From positions 1-64,000 of IMG/VR virus record IMGVR_UViG_3300042691_042003: a stretch of 64,000 nucleotides of DNA. The stretch is one strand, 5' to 3'. Shown here one piece after another: positions 14,176-22,207 of this stretch (positions within the stretch are counted from its first letter, which is position 1; the number at the start of each line of letters is the position of its first letter). The translations under genes and the position numbers were made by a program. Below the pieces are notes generated by a model that searched no databases, was not told where the DNA came from, and saw nothing but the letters and a program-made list of their open reading frames with translations. This stretch comes from a virus.

Positions 14176-15705
14176 ATGAGTAATTTTGAAAGAAGTATAG
14201 TTTCTATTATAGATCCTACTATTAAAACTGATCCAATAGCACAGGCTGATACTGAATCAAAAGAAGCTAGATCTGAAGGTACTGAAGCTATAGGAGAAGG
14301 GTCGAATACTAAAAATTCTTCTAGATGGGGTGCTTTTTTACCTCTTATTTTTATAAATACAAATAGATTTGATCAAGATCAAATCAGTTTAATGGTTGTT
14401 GAATTTGATGATAAAATTCCTACAATATCGGTTATATTAAAAGATCCAAACGGTAAATTTACGTTAGATGCACCTTTAGATGGGGATGTTATTTCTCTTT
14501 ATATTAGACCACCTGATGCGGCAAATCAAAAACCTATTAGAATAGATTTTGACATAACCGATATTTCAGGTAATCCTCCTTCTCAAACTTTTTCGGTTAA
14601 TGGTATTATGAAAATACCCGGATTCTTTGCTGAAGTTTGTAAAGATTTCCCTAAAGGAAATTCATTCGATCATCTACAAGATGTTTGTGAAGAAGTAGGA
14701 TTAGGTTTTGCTTCAAATGAAACTGCTACCGATGATTCAATGCCTAGAATTTGTGCATTTGAACCTTATCAATCTTTTGTTGATACAACAGTAATGCATA
14801 CATATAAAGATGATGATTCATTTTTTACTTGGTATATAGATCCTTTTTATTATCTTTGTTTAGTTAATATTAATAAACAATTTGACTTAGAAGATAAATC
14901 TGAAGAAATAAACATTAATTCTATCACTCCTTTTTCTGGAGGACAAAACGATGACGAGGCTGATGATACTTCTAAAGGTAATTTAGTTCTTACTAATCAA
15001 AGCGATAGAAATGGAACGAACATTTATATAGATCATTGGGCTGTTGATAATAAATCTGCTACAGTTTGGATAAAAAATGGTTATAAAAGATATTCACAAT
15101 ATTTAGAGTTAAATGAAGAAGGAGGAACAGAATATGTTAGTACTTTTGCGGATCCTTTGACTACTAAAGGTGCCGAAAGTGATGCAATTCTTCCTAAAGG
15201 GAGAAAGGGGGATAATTTTTACGAAAAGCAAATAAAATATAAATGGTTAGGAAAACAATCTATAGGTAATGTTCATGATAATTATATTTTTTCTAATCTT
15301 CTCAATTTTCAAAATCTTCAAGAAATAGAAAAATTAAGTCTTAATATAGATTTAGCTGGAATGAATTTTTATATTTACCGATATATGAGAATTCCAGTTA
15401 GTATATATAATGATGGTAGTAGAGGAACCGATAAATTACAGAGATTAAAAGATCGAGATAAAGCTTTAGGAGAAGATAATGATGATAATAATGAAAAAAT
15501 TATTAAGAGGGCATCAGGGGAAAATGAAGTGAATATAAATGATGTAGGAACCGATCCAAGAGATCAAGTACTAAATCAACACATTTCAGGATATTACGTT
15601 GTTAATACTATAAAATACGTTTATTCTCCTCCAGGACCTATTAAAATGAAGCTAAACTTGATTAGGAGAGAATGGCCGATTCCAGCAAAAAATAACGATT
15701 ACTAA
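14176..15705 (+). CDS. Baseplate hub protein, gp27/gpD-like
   Basis: 509 residues. After a polar 50-residue head there is a beta-barrel-like region (residues about 55-130), an insertion resembling hub proteins (KIPGFFAEVCKDFPKGNSFD, then the helix LQDVCEEVGLGFASN), a FFTWYIDPFYYLCLVNI core and a C-terminal region YYVVNTIKYVYSPPG. This layout matches tail hub proteins of contractile machines (T4 gp27, P2 gpD), which form the trimer that holds the spike. The spike gene lies two genes downstream. An acidic, Asp/Asn-rich loop (about residues 430-455) is variable-looking. Last base of the stop is the first base of the next ATG. Confidence 0.65.
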   Translation: MSNFERSIVSIIDPTIKTDPIAQADTESKEARSEGTEAIGEGSNTKNSSRWGAFLPLIFINTNRFDQDQISLMVVEFDDKIPTISVILKDPNGKFTLDAPLDGDVISLYIRPPDAANQKPIRIDFDITDISGNPPSQTFSVNGIMKIPGFFAEVCKDFPKGNSFDHLQDVCEEVGLGFASNETATDDSMPRICAFEPYQSFVDTTVMHTYKDDDSFFTWYIDPFYYLCLVNINKQFDLEDKSEEININSITPFSGGQNDDEADDTSKGNLVLTNQSDRNGTNIYIDHWAVDNKSATVWIKNGYKRYSQYLELNEEGGTEYVSTFADPLTTKGAESDAILPKGRKGDNFYEKQIKYKWLGKQSIGNVHDNYIFSNLLNFQNLQEIEKLSLNIDLAGMNFYIYRYMRIPVSIYNDGSRGTDKLQRLKDRDKALGEDNDDNNEKIIKRASGENEVNINDVGTDPRDQVLNQHISGYYVVNTIKYVYSPPGPIKMKLNLIRREWPIPAKNNDY

Positions 15706-17633
15706 TGGCATCACCTTTAAATAATTATAATTATAAAGATCCAGGTGTTCTAAGATTTAAAAAAACAAATCTTTATTATACTGAAGATCCTTATCTTCTT
15801 TATCAAGATCCTACTTGGCTAGGTTTTAAGCTATTTTTTAATTTCGATCAAGCCGATAGTAAGTTATTTGGATTAACCGAAAGTTATACAAATACTGCAT
15901 ATTCTTATCTTTTAAGGATAGGAGATAAGGCTAGAGCCGGATATATGGAAAAATTTGTAAAACATATCTACGAAATTAATAATAAAACTCCTTGGTTTTT
16001 TCAAACTATAACTGGCTTAAGTGAAGCATGGAAAAGAGGATATCAAGATGAAAATTTTAAACCTCTTCTTCCAAATGATAGAAAAATTGAAATAGGTTGT
16101 TTAGAATCTATCGATTTAAGAATATCTGCTTTAATGGATCTGTACAGAAAGTCTTGTTTTGATTGGTATCATAGAAGAGAAATTGTTCCTTGGAATTTAA
16201 GAAATTTTGATGTACTTATTTATGTTTATGAAATAAGAGAAATAAATAGAACGGGTAAACCTTCCCCTTCGGGTATGTTAGATCTTACAAGATTAGCTGG
16301 AATTCCTGATATTAATCAAAAACAACAATCTGAAAATAAAAGGTTGTTAGGTGAAGATCCTTACGGATCTGATGATAGTAAATCTCCTTTAAAACAATTA
16401 ATTGATAAAGGGAAAAGTATAATTGAAGGGGTTAAAGCTGATCCAATTCAAGGGATTAAATCTGCTTTAAATCCAAATACAGCAGGTAACGAAGCATCAA
16501 ATACACCAAACACAAATATAAATAGATTTTTATTTAAATTTAAGTATTGTGAATTCTTACCTGATGAATCAGGAGCAGTTTTAGAAAAAGTTGCCTCTTT
16601 TTCTGGAGGAGAAGGAGAAGCTGCTCAGCAAAAAATAGTTTTTTCTTATAGAGATGTAGAAGAGATCAATTTATATAATATCTATTCCGAGGATCAATAC
16701 GTTCAAGATAAAATTATACAACTTTTTGATCAGGCAGCTATTGACGATCCTAATTTAGTTTTTGCTAACGAAAATGGTAGTTTTAGGACTAATAATTTAA
16801 AAGAAAGACCTTCTTACGGCTTAGAGAGTGTTTTAAATGAAGCAGGATATGGAGTTCTGACTCCTTTTGCTTCTCTTGCAGGTGATAAATTAGAAAGATT
16901 AATTAGCTCTTATGCAGGAAAACTTCTGATGGGTAATATTTATGGATTCTCTCCTCTTAATGCCGCAGGAGCAGTTTCAGGAGTTCTCAGCGGAGATCCT
17001 ACTCAAGTTTTAGCAGGAGCACAAAATTTAGTAGGACAAATAGCTGGAAGTAAATCAGAAAAAAATAGAACGAATGATGTAGAATCAATAGGACCTATAG
17101 ATAAAGGTTCTTCACAATTTAATAATACGAACGATGTAACTTCAATAGGTGGAAGAAGAGCTGTAGATGGATCTTCTCTATCTAATAATACAAAAGATGT
17201 AGGATCTTTAGGAAATACTTATACTCCTGGTCCATCCATTACAAATAAGACAATTGATGTAGATTCTTTAGGTAGTACTTATGATCCTGGATTATCCCCT
17301 AGTAATAATACGAACGATGTAGATTCTTTAGGGCCCATAGAAAGAGGTCAATCTCCTACTAATAAAACTAATGATGTAGGATCTCTCGGAACTAATGATC
17401 CAGGACAGTCACCTTCTAATGCTACAAAAGATGTTAGTTCTTTAGGTTCTATAGCTAAAGGTGATTCTCCTATTAATAAAACTAATGATGTTGGTTCTCT
17501 TGGAAATAATGATCCGGGACAATCACCTTCTAATGCTACAAAAGATGTTGGTTCTCTTGGAACTAATGATCCAGGTCAATCACCTTCTAATGCTACAAAA
17601 GATGTAGGTTCTCTTGGAAATACATTTGGATAA
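15705..17633 (+). CDS. Virion protein with ten C-terminal 19-residue repeats
   Basis: 642 residues. The first 200 residues are mixed alpha/beta with many aromatics (WLGFKLFFNFDQADSKLFG; FDWYHRREIVPWNLRNFDV); residues 270-450 contain a beta-rich section and a Gly/Ala-rich helical section. From residue 454 to the end there are ten copies of a unit reading N-x-T-x-D-V-x-S-[IL]-G followed by about nine Pro/Gly/Ser-rich residues. No family recognised. It lies between the hub gene and the spike gene, so a hub-associated or tape-linked virion role is inferred; the repeat tail could be a flexible binding array. Start overlaps the previous stop by one base. Confidence 0.8.
   Translation: MASPLNNYNYKDPGVLRFKKTNLYYTEDPYLLYQDPTWLGFKLFFNFDQADSKLFGLTESYTNTAYSYLLRIGDKARAGYMEKFVKHIYEINNKTPWFFQTITGLSEAWKRGYQDENFKPLLPNDRKIEIGCLESIDLRISALMDLYRKSCFDWYHRREIVPWNLRNFDVLIYVYEIREINRTGKPSPSGMLDLTRLAGIPDINQKQQSENKRLLGEDPYGSDDSKSPLKQLIDKGKSIIEGVKADPIQGIKSALNPNTAGNEASNTPNTNINRFLFKFKYCEFLPDESGAVLEKVASFSGGEGEAAQQKIVFSYRDVEEINLYNIYSEDQYVQDKIIQLFDQAAIDDPNLVFANENGSFRTNNLKERPSYGLESVLNEAGYGVLTPFASLAGDKLERLISSYAGKLLMGNIYGFSPLNAAGAVSGVLSGDPTQVLAGAQNLVGQIAGSKSEKNRTNDVESIGPIDKGSSQFNNTNDVTSIGGRRAVDGSSLSNNTKDVGSLGNTYTPGPSITNKTIDVDSLGSTYDPGLSPSNNTNDVDSLGPIERGQSPTNKTNDVGSLGTNDPGQSPSNATKDVSSLGSIAKGDSPINKTNDVGSLGNNDPGQSPSNATKDVGSLGTNDPGQSPSNATKDVGSLGNTFG
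17064..17633 (+). repeat. Ten tandem 57-60-base coding repeats
   Basis: Encodes ten N-x-T-x-D-V-x-S-[IL]-G units in frame, down to four residues before the stop codon. The last five units are nearly identical in DNA (gatccaggacaatcaccttc followed by taatgctacaaaagatgt), so the array is probably changing in copy number. Confidence 0.9.
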
Positions 17634-17653: not shown

Positions 17654-18448
17654 ATGCTTAATAATCAAACAGCTTATAAAGACGATCTTGTAGGAACTTC
17701 TTGGGTAGGGGAAGTAGTGGATATTGAAGACCCACAAAAAATAGGAAGAGTTCGAGTAAAAGTATACGGTAAATTTGATGATATTCCTACTGAATCTATT
17801 CCTTGGGCATATCCAGGAAATAATCAAACAGGAGGATCTGATAGTGGAGGAGGATTTTTTTCCGTACCTAAGTTAGGTTCTTTAGTTTCAATTAAATTTG
17901 ATAATGGGAATATTTATCATCCTGAATATTTTTTTAATCAAAAAATTTCAGATGAAACAAAAGAAGAAATAAGTAATTCATATCCTAATGCTCATGTTTT
18001 AATATATGATACAGTTACTGAAGAATTTGTTAAAGTCTTCTTTACTGAAGAAAAAGGTCTAATGTTTGATTATAAGAAAACTCAAATTAATATTAAGCCT
18101 GATAAATCTATAGATATTCATACAGAATCTAATAACAGTAAAATTCTAATAGAAGACGACGGAAAACTTACAGTTTATCATAAAGGAGAAATGAAAATTG
18201 ATTGTGATGCTAATGTTAATCTTACATCAAAAAAAGATGTAAAAGTTAAGTGTACTAATTTAACGATAGATCATTCGGCTTCTATAAAATTAGGTGCAGC
18301 AGCAAGTGAATTAGCAGTTTTGGGAAATCAAATGATGACACTTTTTAATACACATACACATGTAGGAAATTTAGGTGCTCCTACTTCCCCTCCTATGGCA
18401 CCTATGACACCAACTCATTTAAGTCAAAAACAAGTTAAAGTTCAATAA
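17654..18448 (+). CDS. gp5: Baseplate central spike protein, gp5/gpV-like, without lysozyme domain
   Basis: 264 residues. N-terminal OB-fold (residues about 12-95): WVGEVVDIEDPQKIGRVRVK, then a Gly-rich loop and the strand LGSLVSIKFDNGN. This is the gp5N/VgrG/gpV domain that docks on the hub trimer. Residues 100-225 are short repeating strands (KIDCDANVNLTSKKDVKVKC) typical of the triple beta-helix needle. The tip has HTHVG followed by a Pro/Thr/Met-rich stretch ending PTHLS, as in metal-binding spike tips. T4 gp5 (575 residues) carries a lysozyme domain between OB-fold and needle; here it is absent. Role: membrane-piercing spike at the centre of the baseplate. Confidence 0.85.
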   Translation: MLNNQTAYKDDLVGTSWVGEVVDIEDPQKIGRVRVKVYGKFDDIPTESIPWAYPGNNQTGGSDSGGGFFSVPKLGSLVSIKFDNGNIYHPEYFFNQKISDETKEEISNSYPNAHVLIYDTVTEEFVKVFFTEEKGLMFDYKKTQINIKPDKSIDIHTESNNSKILIEDDGKLTVYHKGEMKIDCDANVNLTSKKDVKVKCTNLTIDHSASIKLGAAASELAVLGNQMMTLFNTHTHVGNLGAPTSPPMAPMTPTHLSQKQVKVQ

Positions 18449-18833: not shown

Positions 18834-18848
18834 GATATATATAATATC
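18834..18848 (+). promoter_or_regulatory. GATATATATAATATC, candidate promoter for the S1-domain gene
   Basis: Near-palindromic AT box in the 57-base gap before the S1-domain gene (ATG 18874), 26 bases upstream of it. It resembles the TATATAATA box before 12013. The presence of its own promoter in a run of otherwise abutting genes would fit separate control; inferred. Confidence 0.35.
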
Positions 18849-18873
18849 TTAATACCTTATTATTTTATTATAA

Positions 18874-20037
18874 ATGATTCAAAAAAATAATTCGCTTCAG
18901 GATTTCGATTGGGATCTTTTTGAAGCTTCTTCTCCTTCACACCTTAGGTCAAATAACCGAATTAAAAAATTAAAAGGAGATAAATCTAAAGTTTTTAGCA
19001 GAATGCCTTATGCTCAACAAATGTATGAAGCATATAGTGGTATAGAACAAAAAATTGCAGAAATTACTACTGGTTCTGTAGTACAAGGTAAAGTTGTTTC
19101 AATTAATAAAGACTTTGCTATTGTAGATGTTAATTGGAGAGAAGATGCTATGATCGATCTCCGTAAAGAAGAACCTGATTTTCTTCGTTATATTCAACCA
19201 GGTTTTCCTGTTGAAGTTATTATTGAAAGAATTGGAAACCATCAAGGATCTTCTTCAAAAAGTATTATTGCTTCTTATTCTAAAAATATTCTTGCTAAGA
19301 AAAAACAAGAGCTTTTAGAATCAATTGGAGAGCCGGTAGCTTATCTAGGAACTGTTACTGAATTAATCCATGGAGGATATTTTGTTGATGTTTCTGGAGT
19401 ACAATGCTTTATGCCTGGTTCATTAGGAGGTATGAATAAGCTAGTTAATTTTGAAGATCTTATTGGAAAATCTCTTTATGTAACGATTATTAATTATTCT
19501 AAAGAAAAAGATTATTTAGTTGTTTCTCATAGAGAATATCTTAAGACTTTAGTTCCTGAAGAGATTTCTAAACTTCAAATGGGAATAGAATATGATGGTT
19601 TTGTAACTGGAACTAGCAAACATGGAGTATTTGCTGAATTTAATGGATGTTTAACAGGTCTTATTTCTAGATCTGATATTCTCCCTCAATATTTAGATGA
19701 TTTTGATAATAGAAGAATTAAAGCTGGATCGAGTATTAAATTCTTTATTAAAGAAATTATTGATAATGATAAAATTGTTCTTTCACAAAAACCTGTAACG
19801 ATCGAACCTTCTGCATGGGATGATATTGAAGAAAGATACAAAGTTCCTTCTACCGTTACCGGAAAGATTAAGAAAATTGTTCAATATGGAGCTTTTATCG
19901 AATTAGAACCTAAAATCGTAGGTCTTCTTCATAAATCACATTTAAATGAAAGTTTTGAATTAGAAGTAGGTCAAGAAATTGAAGTTAAAATCACTAGAAT
20001 AGATAAAGAATCCAAAAAAGTTGATTTTGCCATGTAA
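18874..20037 (+). CDS. Protein with four S1 RNA-binding domains (ribosomal protein S1-like)
   Basis: 387 residues. Four S1 repeats can be seen: residues about 66-136 (GSVVQGKVVSINKDFAIVDV), 155-220 (AYLGTVTELIHGGYFVDVSG, ending LVVSHRE), 236-306 (YDGFVTGTSKHGVFAEFNG, ending IVLSQK) and 325-387 (VTGKIKKIVQYGAFIELEP). Bacterial S1 has six domains and about 560-600 residues; this one has four plus a 60-residue head containing FDWDLFE, a motif reminiscent of the start of Bacteroidota S1. S1 binds mRNA and helps load it on the 30S subunit. Inferred role: steering host ribosomes to phage mRNA, or RNA handling. It lies alone among virion genes with promoter-like boxes on both sides. RNase E/PNPase-type S1 proteins are excluded by the lack of catalytic domains. 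Confidence 0.85.
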   Translation: MIQKNNSLQDFDWDLFEASSPSHLRSNNRIKKLKGDKSKVFSRMPYAQQMYEAYSGIEQKIAEITTGSVVQGKVVSINKDFAIVDVNWREDAMIDLRKEEPDFLRYIQPGFPVEVIIERIGNHQGSSSKSIIASYSKNILAKKKQELLESIGEPVAYLGTVTELIHGGYFVDVSGVQCFMPGSLGGMNKLVNFEDLIGKSLYVTIINYSKEKDYLVVSHREYLKTLVPEEISKLQMGIEYDGFVTGTSKHGVFAEFNGCLTGLISRSDILPQYLDDFDNRRIKAGSSIKFFIKEIIDNDKIVLSQKPVTIEPSAWDDIEERYKVPSTVTGKIKKIVQYGAFIELEPKIVGLLHKSHLNESFELEVGQEIEVKITRIDKESKKVDFAM

Positions 20038-20049
20038 TCTTCTTAGATA

Positions 20050-20057
20050 TATAAATA
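20050..20057 (+). promoter_or_regulatory. TATAAATA, T4-late-type promoter box
   Basis: Exact match to the T4 late promoter core TATAAATA in the 32-base gap before the ATG at 20070. In T4 this box is read by the gp55 sigma factor; whether this phage has such a factor cannot be seen here. Confidence 0.45.
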
Positions 20058-20069
20058 AAGAAGGTACAA

Positions 20070-21431
20070 ATGGATTTTAATTCTCAAGCACTATTTCCTT
20101 TATTTGAAAAATCACTTATTAGAATAACCGCCGATTTTGAATCAGATAAAGATCCAAGATCGGTGGTTTCTGATTTGTCTAAAGAGCTAAAAATTAAAGT
20201 CTCTTCAGAAGAACCATCATCTTATAATTTCAATTTAAAAAGAGGTGATGATGGAGTTTATCATTTAATTACTCCTTTTATTTTTTATCGAGATTCTCGA
20301 TTAGTTATTATTAATCTTTTTAAATGGATTCAGAGAAGTGGTAAAACTTCTATAAACACAAATCTTTTGATAGATTTAAAGTTTATGGATCGTCAAGAAG
20401 GTCCTTTTAAAGGAACTCTTCTTTCTACGGCAACAAAAATCGATAATATTTCAAAAACTAAATTTATTCTTCAATTCGATGAAGATTTAGTTTATAAAAT
20501 ATTCCCTTCTAGGAAAAATTATTTTATATCTCAAACTATTGAAAGATTTGAACCTACAAGTAAATTTGTATCTAAAGGATATTCTTCAATAGATCCTAAA
20601 TTCTATCAAGTACCTTCAACTTCTAATTGCGGAATAAATTTTGAAACCTTATTTGAGGGTTTTCTTCGAATGCAGTATATAGGAGGGACTAGATATGAGG
20701 ATAAAGTAGATGATGTTTTAAAAATTATTAATCAATTTTGTGTAATCGCTTGGGATTCTACGATAAATAGTAATCTGACAAAAGAAAATTTGATTAAATT
20801 TGAAAAAATCGTAGATAAAAATAAAAAAATAAGAGAATCTTATTTAGATTTTGCAATTTTTAGAAAAAATTACCCTAAGATAAAATTTACGGTAGATTTA
20901 GTAGATAATCATAAATCTTTAGATATATTTTATCAATCTCTTAGAGAAAGGATTTTCGAGATTCTTTCTAATATAGATACAAAAAAGGGATTTGAGCTTA
21001 ATTATGATTCATCAGTTTCAACTTTTCAAATAAATGAAGGAGAAATTGATTGTCGAAATATTAATGGTATTGAATTTATTAATTGTACAATAAAAGGGGG
21101 AAATTTTAGTAAATGTGATTTCTTTAATTGTGAAATAAATGATGCCGTTTTAAACGAATGTAATGTTTTTTTAGAAACGAAAGCAAACAGATGTTTTTTA
21201 AACAATACTTTTACAAATAGAACTTCTACTATTTTCAATTGTGATTTTAGTGGAGTAAATGGAGTTTTAAACGGTAAAATGGAAGGAGGAGTATTCAGAA
21301 ATGGAAAGGTAGGATTATTTGCTGATATATCTCCAAATACTACAGTTATACAATATCAAAAACTTAAAAGTGGATATGTTGTTGCTGGAGATCAAATAAT
21401 AATTCCAACAAAAAAATTTAGACAGTTATAA
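20070..21431 (+). CDS. Virion protein with pentapeptide-like C-terminal repeats
   Basis: 453 residues. Residues 1-320 are mixed alpha/beta without a recognised motif. Residues about 325-425 form a run of short strands with Cys/Asn/Phe at regular spacing (IDCRNINGIEFINCTIKGGN, then FSKCDFFNCEINDAVLNECN, then VNGVLNGKMEGGVFRNGKVG), typical of a pentapeptide-like right-handed beta-helix. Such a protein next to gp25/gp6 genes is common in T4-type phages and is probably structural. It has its own TATAAATA box and ends one base into the next gene's ATG. Confidence 0.75.
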   Translation: MDFNSQALFPLFEKSLIRITADFESDKDPRSVVSDLSKELKIKVSSEEPSSYNFNLKRGDDGVYHLITPFIFYRDSRLVIINLFKWIQRSGKTSINTNLLIDLKFMDRQEGPFKGTLLSTATKIDNISKTKFILQFDEDLVYKIFPSRKNYFISQTIERFEPTSKFVSKGYSSIDPKFYQVPSTSNCGINFETLFEGFLRMQYIGGTRYEDKVDDVLKIINQFCVIAWDSTINSNLTKENLIKFEKIVDKNKKIRESYLDFAIFRKNYPKIKFTVDLVDNHKSLDIFYQSLRERIFEILSNIDTKKGFELNYDSSVSTFQINEGEIDCRNINGIEFINCTIKGGNFSKCDFFNCEINDAVLNECNVFLETKANRCFLNNTFTNRTSTIFNCDFSGVNGVLNGKMEGGVFRNGKVGLFADISPNTTVIQYQKLKSGYVVAGDQIIIPTKKFRQL

Positions 21432-22207
21432 TGGATAATTGTTCAACATCAAACGTTCCTTATACGGAAGATGAATTTATTGCTTTAGTTCAGCAAGAAT
21501 TAAGCGTTGCTTGCTCTTTACCTTTTACAGTTCCTGTTACTGAAATACAAAGAATTATTAAATTCTCAGCTGATTGGTTTTATAAAAAATATGAAGATGC
21601 AGTAGAAGAAAGATATTATTTTATCTCTACTAAATCATTTCAATCAGAGCAATTTAAAAGAGAAAGAACTGTAACTATGCCTGATTGTGTTTTTTCAGTT
21701 TGGCAATTAAAGAAGCTAAAAGAAGATTTCAGTAGAATGATGTCTTTCGATGGTACTGCTGACTTTGGTATAGAACGTCTATTTCTTTCTGATTCTGTTT
21801 CTATAGGTCAAGGAACGGAAAATCTAATGTATTATACTCTTAATCTTTATTGGTTAGATGTTGCTTCTCATATAATCAATCATACGATTAGCTATAATTA
21901 TAATAGAAATTCAAAAAGGCTTTTTTTTGCAGGACAAACTCCTGATAGGGATTGTGTTGCAATGTGTTATGTTAAAGTTCCTATGGAACATTTGATGAAA
22001 GATGAAATTTTTTATCGTTATGTCGTTGCAAAATGTAAGATACAGCTTTCTAGAATATTAGGTACTTTTAATTTTAATCTTCCTGGAAATATACAAATTA
22101 ATTATGATCTTATACGTTCAGAAGGTCAGGACGAAATAACTAAAATTGAAGAAGAAATTAAAGGAGAAGAAGGAATGGATTTCTTCTTTACTTCTGGAGG
22201 ATCTTAA
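21431..22207 (+). CDS. Conserved-looking virion protein, neck/connector-like
   Basis: 258 residues. Helical N-terminus (EIQRIIKFSADWFYKKYEDA), a beta-rich middle, a YYTLNLYWLDVASHIINHTI helix, and a C-terminus FYRYVVAKCKIQLSRILGTF followed by FNLPGNIQINYDLIRSEG and an acidic end. This pattern (helical core, one lipped beta domain) fits neck or connector proteins of tailed phages, but I cannot fix the T4 counterpart. The ATG overlaps the upstream stop by one base; gp25 follows after 15 bases. Confidence 0.6.
   Translation: MDNCSTSNVPYTEDEFIALVQQELSVACSLPFTVPVTEIQRIIKFSADWFYKKYEDAVEERYYFISTKSFQSEQFKRERTVTMPDCVFSVWQLKKLKEDFSRMMSFDGTADFGIERLFLSDSVSIGQGTENLMYYTLNLYWLDVASHIINHTISYNYNRNSKRLFFAGQTPDRDCVAMCYVKVPMEHLMKDEIFYRYVVAKCKIQLSRILGTFNFNLPGNIQINYDLIRSEGQDEITKIEEEIKGEEGMDFFFTSGGS

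Follow-up and report, generated by a model that had tools for sequence, protein, structure and literature searches.

Here we report that a gene for a bS1-like protein of 387 amino acids (aa) is a core and syntenic gene of a large lineage of aquatic phages. The gene lies in a stretch of 64,000 nt (positions 1 to 64,000 of the IMG/VR virus record IMGVR_UViG_3300042691_042003; hereafter the window), and the 246-kb record from which the window was taken contains a single copy of it. Judged by its sequence, the protein is a relative of bS1. On balance, we favor the reading that it docks on the host 30S subunit, joins or displaces host bS1, and with its four S1 domains sustains initiation on late virion mRNAs. 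An earlier note, made from the letters of the window, had described four S1 repeats without a catalytic domain, a Bacteroidota-like FDWDLFE head, a position among virion genes, and AT-rich promoter-like boxes; each of these observations held up in the analyses described below. The coordinates of all features are given in Table 1.

Pfam searches identified four PF00575 S1 stretches in the protein (whole-protein E = 6.4e-29), and no catalytic domain was found in it by Pfam and NCBIfam. An exonuclease-linked S1 protein (PNPase, RNase R/II) was ruled out, as these searches found no attached nuclease domain. The top NCBIfam matches are bS1 equivalogs (E = 6e-53, residues 48-386). The best score (180 bits) falls far short of the curated rpsA equivalog cut-off (524 bits), so we describe the phage protein as bS1-like rather than calling it rpsA. 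In the phmmer comparison, it is colinear with D1-D4 of Escherichia coli bS1. For the domain comparison, one hidden Markov model (HMM) was built per bS1 domain. The first phage domain matches the D1 model with 41.4 bits (next best: 8.8) and the second matches the D2 model with 44.0 bits (next best: 13.6), such that a bS1-type D1 followed by a bS1-type D2 stands at the N-terminus. These matches suggest that the ribosome-docking part is specific to bS1 and that the remainder is of the general RNA-binding S1 type; domains 3 and 4 match several S1 classes. The bS1-specific D1 and D2, and an N-terminal helix that is reproduced in the structure model, argue against an affinity with exonuclease-type S1 proteins; a phylogenetic placement with such non-ribosomal proteins was among the findings that, according to the earlier note, would overturn its proposal.

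An AlphaFold2 model built on 39 relatives has a predicted local distance difference test (pLDDT) score of 81.5 and a predicted template modeling (pTM) score of 0.50, meaning that the domains are reliable and their mutual placement is uncertain. The top Foldseek match of this model is 9gut_B, which is bS1 in the 30S mRNA delivery complex (E = 8.8e-26). VIA-align 2 gave Z scores of 13.9-13.3 against bS1 chains, with 246 residues of D1-D3 aligned at 5.3 Å; these alignments cover the N-terminal helix of bS1, to which helix 47-55 of the phage protein corresponds. In E. coli, the N-terminal helix of bS1 stacks on Phe32 of uS2, Lys43 enters the uS2 zinc pocket, and Phe130 and Phe120 have roles in the mRNA pocket of D2 (PMC10123108). 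The column of E. coli Lys43 holds Arg or Lys in 18 of the 19 family members and in three of the four other huge-phage/Lak sequences. Phe130 is invariant, while Phe120 is represented by Tyr or Phe in the phage members. The RNA-contact positions are kept, and domains 3 and 4 have the canonical RNA-binding positions. These features of sequence and model point to a putative association with 30S through uS2.

The F[DN]WxxF/Y head is present in 79 of the 80 Bacteroidia bS1 sequences that were fetched, a figure biased somewhat upward because one of the six scan patterns included this motif. Of the 30 phylum-wide best matches, most of which belong to other classes according to their place in the tree, three have it, as does none of the 13 bS1 sequences from other phyla. 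Among the 96 unique members of the phage family, 47 have an FDW-type head, and most others have an unrelated DDPFD-type head. In one subclade (L025-L049 and L240-L288), the strongly conserved head EQEITIQLSDDPFDTKxVKVxVPKGTK replaces FDWxxFE and is possibly another docking element. The S1 protein of Lak phages has the head FNWTPYE, which suggests that the FxW head is ancient within the phage S1 clade.

In the window, the S1 gene is located between a gp5-like spike gene and the neck, gp25, and gp6 genes. The order of spike, (121-aa protein), S1, 453-aa protein, neck, gp25, and gp6 was found in 48/48 loci as far as the contigs reach, and the local gene order around S1 is identical in LR756500. 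The neck gene was used as an anchor, which involves no preselection for S1, and loci cut short upstream were set aside. Among the neck-anchored loci with enough upstream DNA, S1 is present in all, down to 40% neck identity, with the exception of one distant locus (L209; neck match of 22%). The earlier note had proposed to look for the gene in related phages; apart from that locus, these neck-anchored relatives do carry it, at the same place.

A first scan of IMG/VR yielded 48 S1 loci, and a profile scan yielded at least 587 confirmed stretches. The nearest named relative of the phage S1 is that of LR756500 (45%). We take LR756500-LR756504 and LR745206 to be genomes of Al-Shayeb et al. 2020. 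A mixture tree computed with the posterior mean site frequency (PMSF) approach unites the family with LR756500, the phages of 634-735 kb, and the Lak phages in one clade (support 100/100), whose branch is very long and falls within none of the bacterial phyla sampled. This clade of phage S1 proteins is old, and its huge-phage members beside Lak span 462-735 kb. In the comparison with Bacteroidota bS1 that the earlier note had called for, the phage protein did not nest inside that group, but a placement with Bacteroidota was not rejected by the approximately unbiased (AU) test (p = 0.18); the placement with Bacteroidia was borderline (p = 0.052). An origin from Bacteroidia bS1 would therefore rest on the head motif and not on the tree. 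The bacterial bS1 sequences were retrieved with a Bacteroides-like query, which served as bait only. When the phage S1 protein itself was used to scan bacterial genomes, no match was confirmed, because the conserved peptides of the phage S1 are lineage-specific. For dating the S1 gain relative to the S1-negative cultured phages, a sheath tree requires two changes. Some records filed as phages contain rpsA genes of other types. One of these (L141; CAKLQH020000011, filed as Acinetobacter phage MD-2021a) has cmk-rpsA-himD in bacterial order; the gene content of the MD-2021a rpsA records identifies them as contigs of bacterial chromosomes, and they were excluded as phage evidence. Another (L192; "Bacteriophage sp." MT835643) has a Bacteroidales-type rpsA.

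The S1 genes share a promoter-like box. An [AGT]ATATATA box is present within 100 nt upstream in 84 of the 96 family S1 genes, compared with a background of 3.3%, and the median distance is 38 nt. This box resembles T4 late promoters (TATAAATA). Across the record, there are 22 copies of GATATATA on the plus strand, which is rich in coding sequence, and one on the minus strand. Many of the copies are located 20-80 nt upstream of gene starts, and several directly precede virion genes, among which are those for a head maturation protease and for the tail sheath. The number on the plus strand is only a modest excess over the 14.6 expected from a first-order Markov model, so it is the placement of GATATATA, rather than its number, that carries the promoter argument. 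The single copy on the minus strand is below the approximately 15 expected per strand, and this near absence may represent avoidance of misplaced promoters. The earlier note had suggested that the protein acts late in infection. Late expression of the S1 gene would fit its place among virion genes and the class of its promoter; the timing itself is inferred from these features.

By their neck and sheath proteins, the closest relatives in culture are the Tenacibaculum phages PTm1, PTm5, and pT24, Chryseobacterium and Flavobacterium phages, and Sphingomonas phage PAU. Based on these relatives and on the Bacteroidota-type leaders of the phage genes, the host very likely belongs to Bacteroidota. 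These leaders are A-rich at positions -10 to -13 and -3, a pattern that was also reported for Flavobacterium johnsoniae (PMC6847099). Reading of the -12/-13 adenines by F. johnsoniae bS1 was suggested but not demonstrated (PMC6847099), and this bS1 stimulates initiation on an mRNA without a Shine-Dalgarno (SD) sequence in vitro (PMC9976891).

The near absence of SD sequences stated in the earlier note was confirmed: they precede one of the 45 window genes, and SD-like 4-mers precede 2.7% of the approximately 291 genes called genome-wide (1.0% after shuffling). However, the argument built on it, namely that phage S1 serves mRNAs that lack SD sequences, did not survive comparison with cultured relatives. 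Whole-record profile searches found no S1 in PTm1, pT24, MaF61 (Flavobacterium), and PAU, and in stretches of 25-30 kb from these phages, SD sequences precede 0/30, 1/32, 0/17, and 0/23 genes, respectively, and the frequency of A at -13 to -10 is 0.56-0.66. Since the S1-less relatives lack SD sequences equally and share the A-rich leaders, this lack characterizes the host group and is not a sign of phage S1, and we rejected it as evidence for S1 function. The published correlation between S1 and SD absence (PMC7162821) would require that S1-bearing phages stand apart in this respect, which they do not; this indicates an effect confounded by host phylum. The proposal that ribosomes may be steered to A-rich phage leaders finds no ground in leader composition, as the leaders of virion genes show no extra A-richness (0.51 vs. 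0.52 for other genes). None of the present measurements supports a selectivity of S1 for phage mRNA.

Some of the S1 phages encode a second protein of the 30S mRNA exit site, bS21, which is a neighbor of S1 there. Among the 36 S1-phage records tested, which are mostly fragments, 15 have bS21 above the Pfam cut-off (L050, L051, L052, and L378-L389), and the three bS21 proteins that were read have the normal length (66-67 aa). No bS21 was found in the 246 kb of the source genome or in its relatives of 254 and 294 kb. The bS21 proteins of Bacteroidota phages and their late expression have already been published (PMC9723584), whereas we found no report in the open-licence literature of bS1 and bS21 jointly in the S1-phage lineage.

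In the mechanism that we favor, domains 1 and 2 and the N-terminal helices would attach to uS2 where mRNA exits the host 30S, as host bS1 does, and domains 3 and 4 would hold mRNA. A late-type promoter would drive synthesis of the protein alongside that of the virion proteins, and the protein would join or displace host bS1 on a share of the ribosomes (bS1 binding is reversible), by which initiation on virion mRNAs would be kept high late in infection. The phage S1 is probably a standing part of late host-ribosome handling in this lineage. Several points weigh against this mechanism. The protein lacks two of the six domains of host bS1, E. coli Lys117 is replaced by His across the phage family, and E. 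coli Phe79 is not conserved. Furthermore, about half of the family has a different head without FDW, the cultured Bacteroidota phage relatives manage without S1, and the class of the promoter is a prediction from DNA letters. A wider proposal, which we regard as speculative and rather doubtful, is that the lineage builds phage-specific initiation ribosomes, with phage bS1 in all members and bS21 in many taking the place of their host counterparts while virions are produced, which would alter mRNA choice in hosts without SD pairing.

The missing domains may instead suggest a translation shut-off factor that would sit at the 30S in the place of bS1, catch mRNA poorly without D5-D6, and be dominant-negative on host or early mRNAs. 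The conservation of the docking D1-D2 would fit such a role, and bS1 is reported to aid some mRNAs more than others (PMC9976891). However, domains 3 and 4 retain the canonical RNA-binding positions, and a promoter of the virion-gene type would act at the wrong time for damping. Moreover, four domains are the normal form of bS1 in many Bacillota, and we consider a shut-off factor decidedly unlikely. Unlikely, too, is an RNA binder acting off the ribosome, which would coat late phage mRNA, protect it from RNases, or assist another phage RNA enzyme, much as host S1 is a cofactor of T4 RegB. RNA binding is a generic property of S1 domains, domains 3 and 4 match several S1 classes, and such roles of host S1 off the ribosome are described (PMC13157829), but a protein of this kind would need neither a D1-D2 homology specific to bS1 nor the conserved N-terminal helix. 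The least likely of these alternatives is a virion component, in which the bS1 fold was recruited as a baseplate part or an injected protein. This would explain why S1 keeps its place between spike and neck in LR756500 and in the IMG/VR relatives, but more distant carriers have the two genes S1 and neck widely separated (315.7 vs. 459.5 kb in LR745206; 684 vs. 455 kb in LR756501), which speaks against a structural baseplate role, and the RNA-contact positions are retained.

Table 1. Features of the S1 gene and its surroundings in the window.
Feature	Position	Strand	Basis
gp5-like baseplate spike, upstream syntenic marker	17654..18448	+	
Late-promoter-like TATA box GATATATATAATATCT, 40 nt upstream of S1 start	18834..18849	+	box scan of family
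bS1-like protein, 387 aa, four S1 domains	18874..20037	+	open reading frame; domain, profile, and structure searches
N-terminal head FDWDLFE, residues 11-17, Bacteroidia bS1-type motif	18904..18924	+	motif comparison with bS1 sets
Helix 47-55 (within PYAQQMYEAYS), superposes on uS2-binding bS1 N-terminal helix	19012..19038	+	AlphaFold2 model, VIA alignments
S1 domain 1, equivalent of bS1 D1, residues 66-134	19069..19275	+	domain HMMs; Arg89 at E. coli Lys43 position
S1 domain 2, equivalent of bS1 D2, residues 152-220	19327..19533	+	lineage signature FMPGSLGGMNK, residues 179-189
S1 domain 3, RNA-binding type, residues 235-306, nearest bS1 D5/D6	19576..19791	+	domain HMMs
S1 domain 4, canonical RNA-binding type, residues 322-387, nearest bS1 D4	19837..20034	+	Pfam, domain HMMs
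GATATATAAATA box ahead of next gene (20070)	20046..20057	+	box scan
Conserved 453-aa virion-cluster protein, downstream syntenic marker	20070..21431	+	
Neck/head-tail adaptor-like protein, synteny anchor	21431..22207	+	

Elsewhere in the tail gene cluster, a 642-aa protein (15705-17633) has a C-terminal part that consists of a run of near repeats (SPSNATKDVGSLG...).

The concept of a phage S1 has been known since 2020, when S1-domain proteins of huge phages and the idea of hijacking were published (Al-Shayeb et al., PMC7162821); true rpS1 in huge phages was considered hard to confirm (PMC7162821), and Mizuno et al. 2019 had set S1 aside as ambiguous. The protein described here is likewise a multi-S1-domain protein without an enzyme domain in a large phage genome, and LR756500-LR756504 and LR745206 carry members of the same S1 clade. 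To this, the present analysis adds the D1-D2 specificity, the core status and synteny, the shared promoter box and its class, the co-occurrence with bS21, and the comparison with S1-less relatives that controls for the SD argument. Whereas ribosomal proteins of phages tend to be regarded as occasional acquisitions, a bS1 relative is here a fixed core gene of a large lineage. As a natural S1 variant, it makes the choice of start sites without SD sequences by Bacteroidota ribosomes testable.

Compared with Bacteroidia bS1 (rpsA), the phage protein shares the docking domains D1-D2, the FxW head, the helix at the N-terminus, and S1 domains of the RNA-binding type. It differs in having four domains instead of about six, an identity of 26-31%, a separate long branch, His in place of Lys117, and a signature of its own (FMPGSLGGMNKL). 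The bS1 of cyanophage PhiMa05/MaAM05 (PMC13157829) is also phage-encoded, but it is placed among bacterial bS1 in the tree, outside the present clade, and adjoins other ribosomal protein genes. The bS21 encoded by freshwater phages of Bacteroidota (Chen et al. 2022, PMC9723584) is similar in being a 30S protein of the initiation site encoded beside virion genes, for which late ribosome substitution was proposed. It is a different protein, and ribosomal protein S1 is unmentioned in the text of that paper; in the present lineage, S1 is core and bS21 was found in part only.
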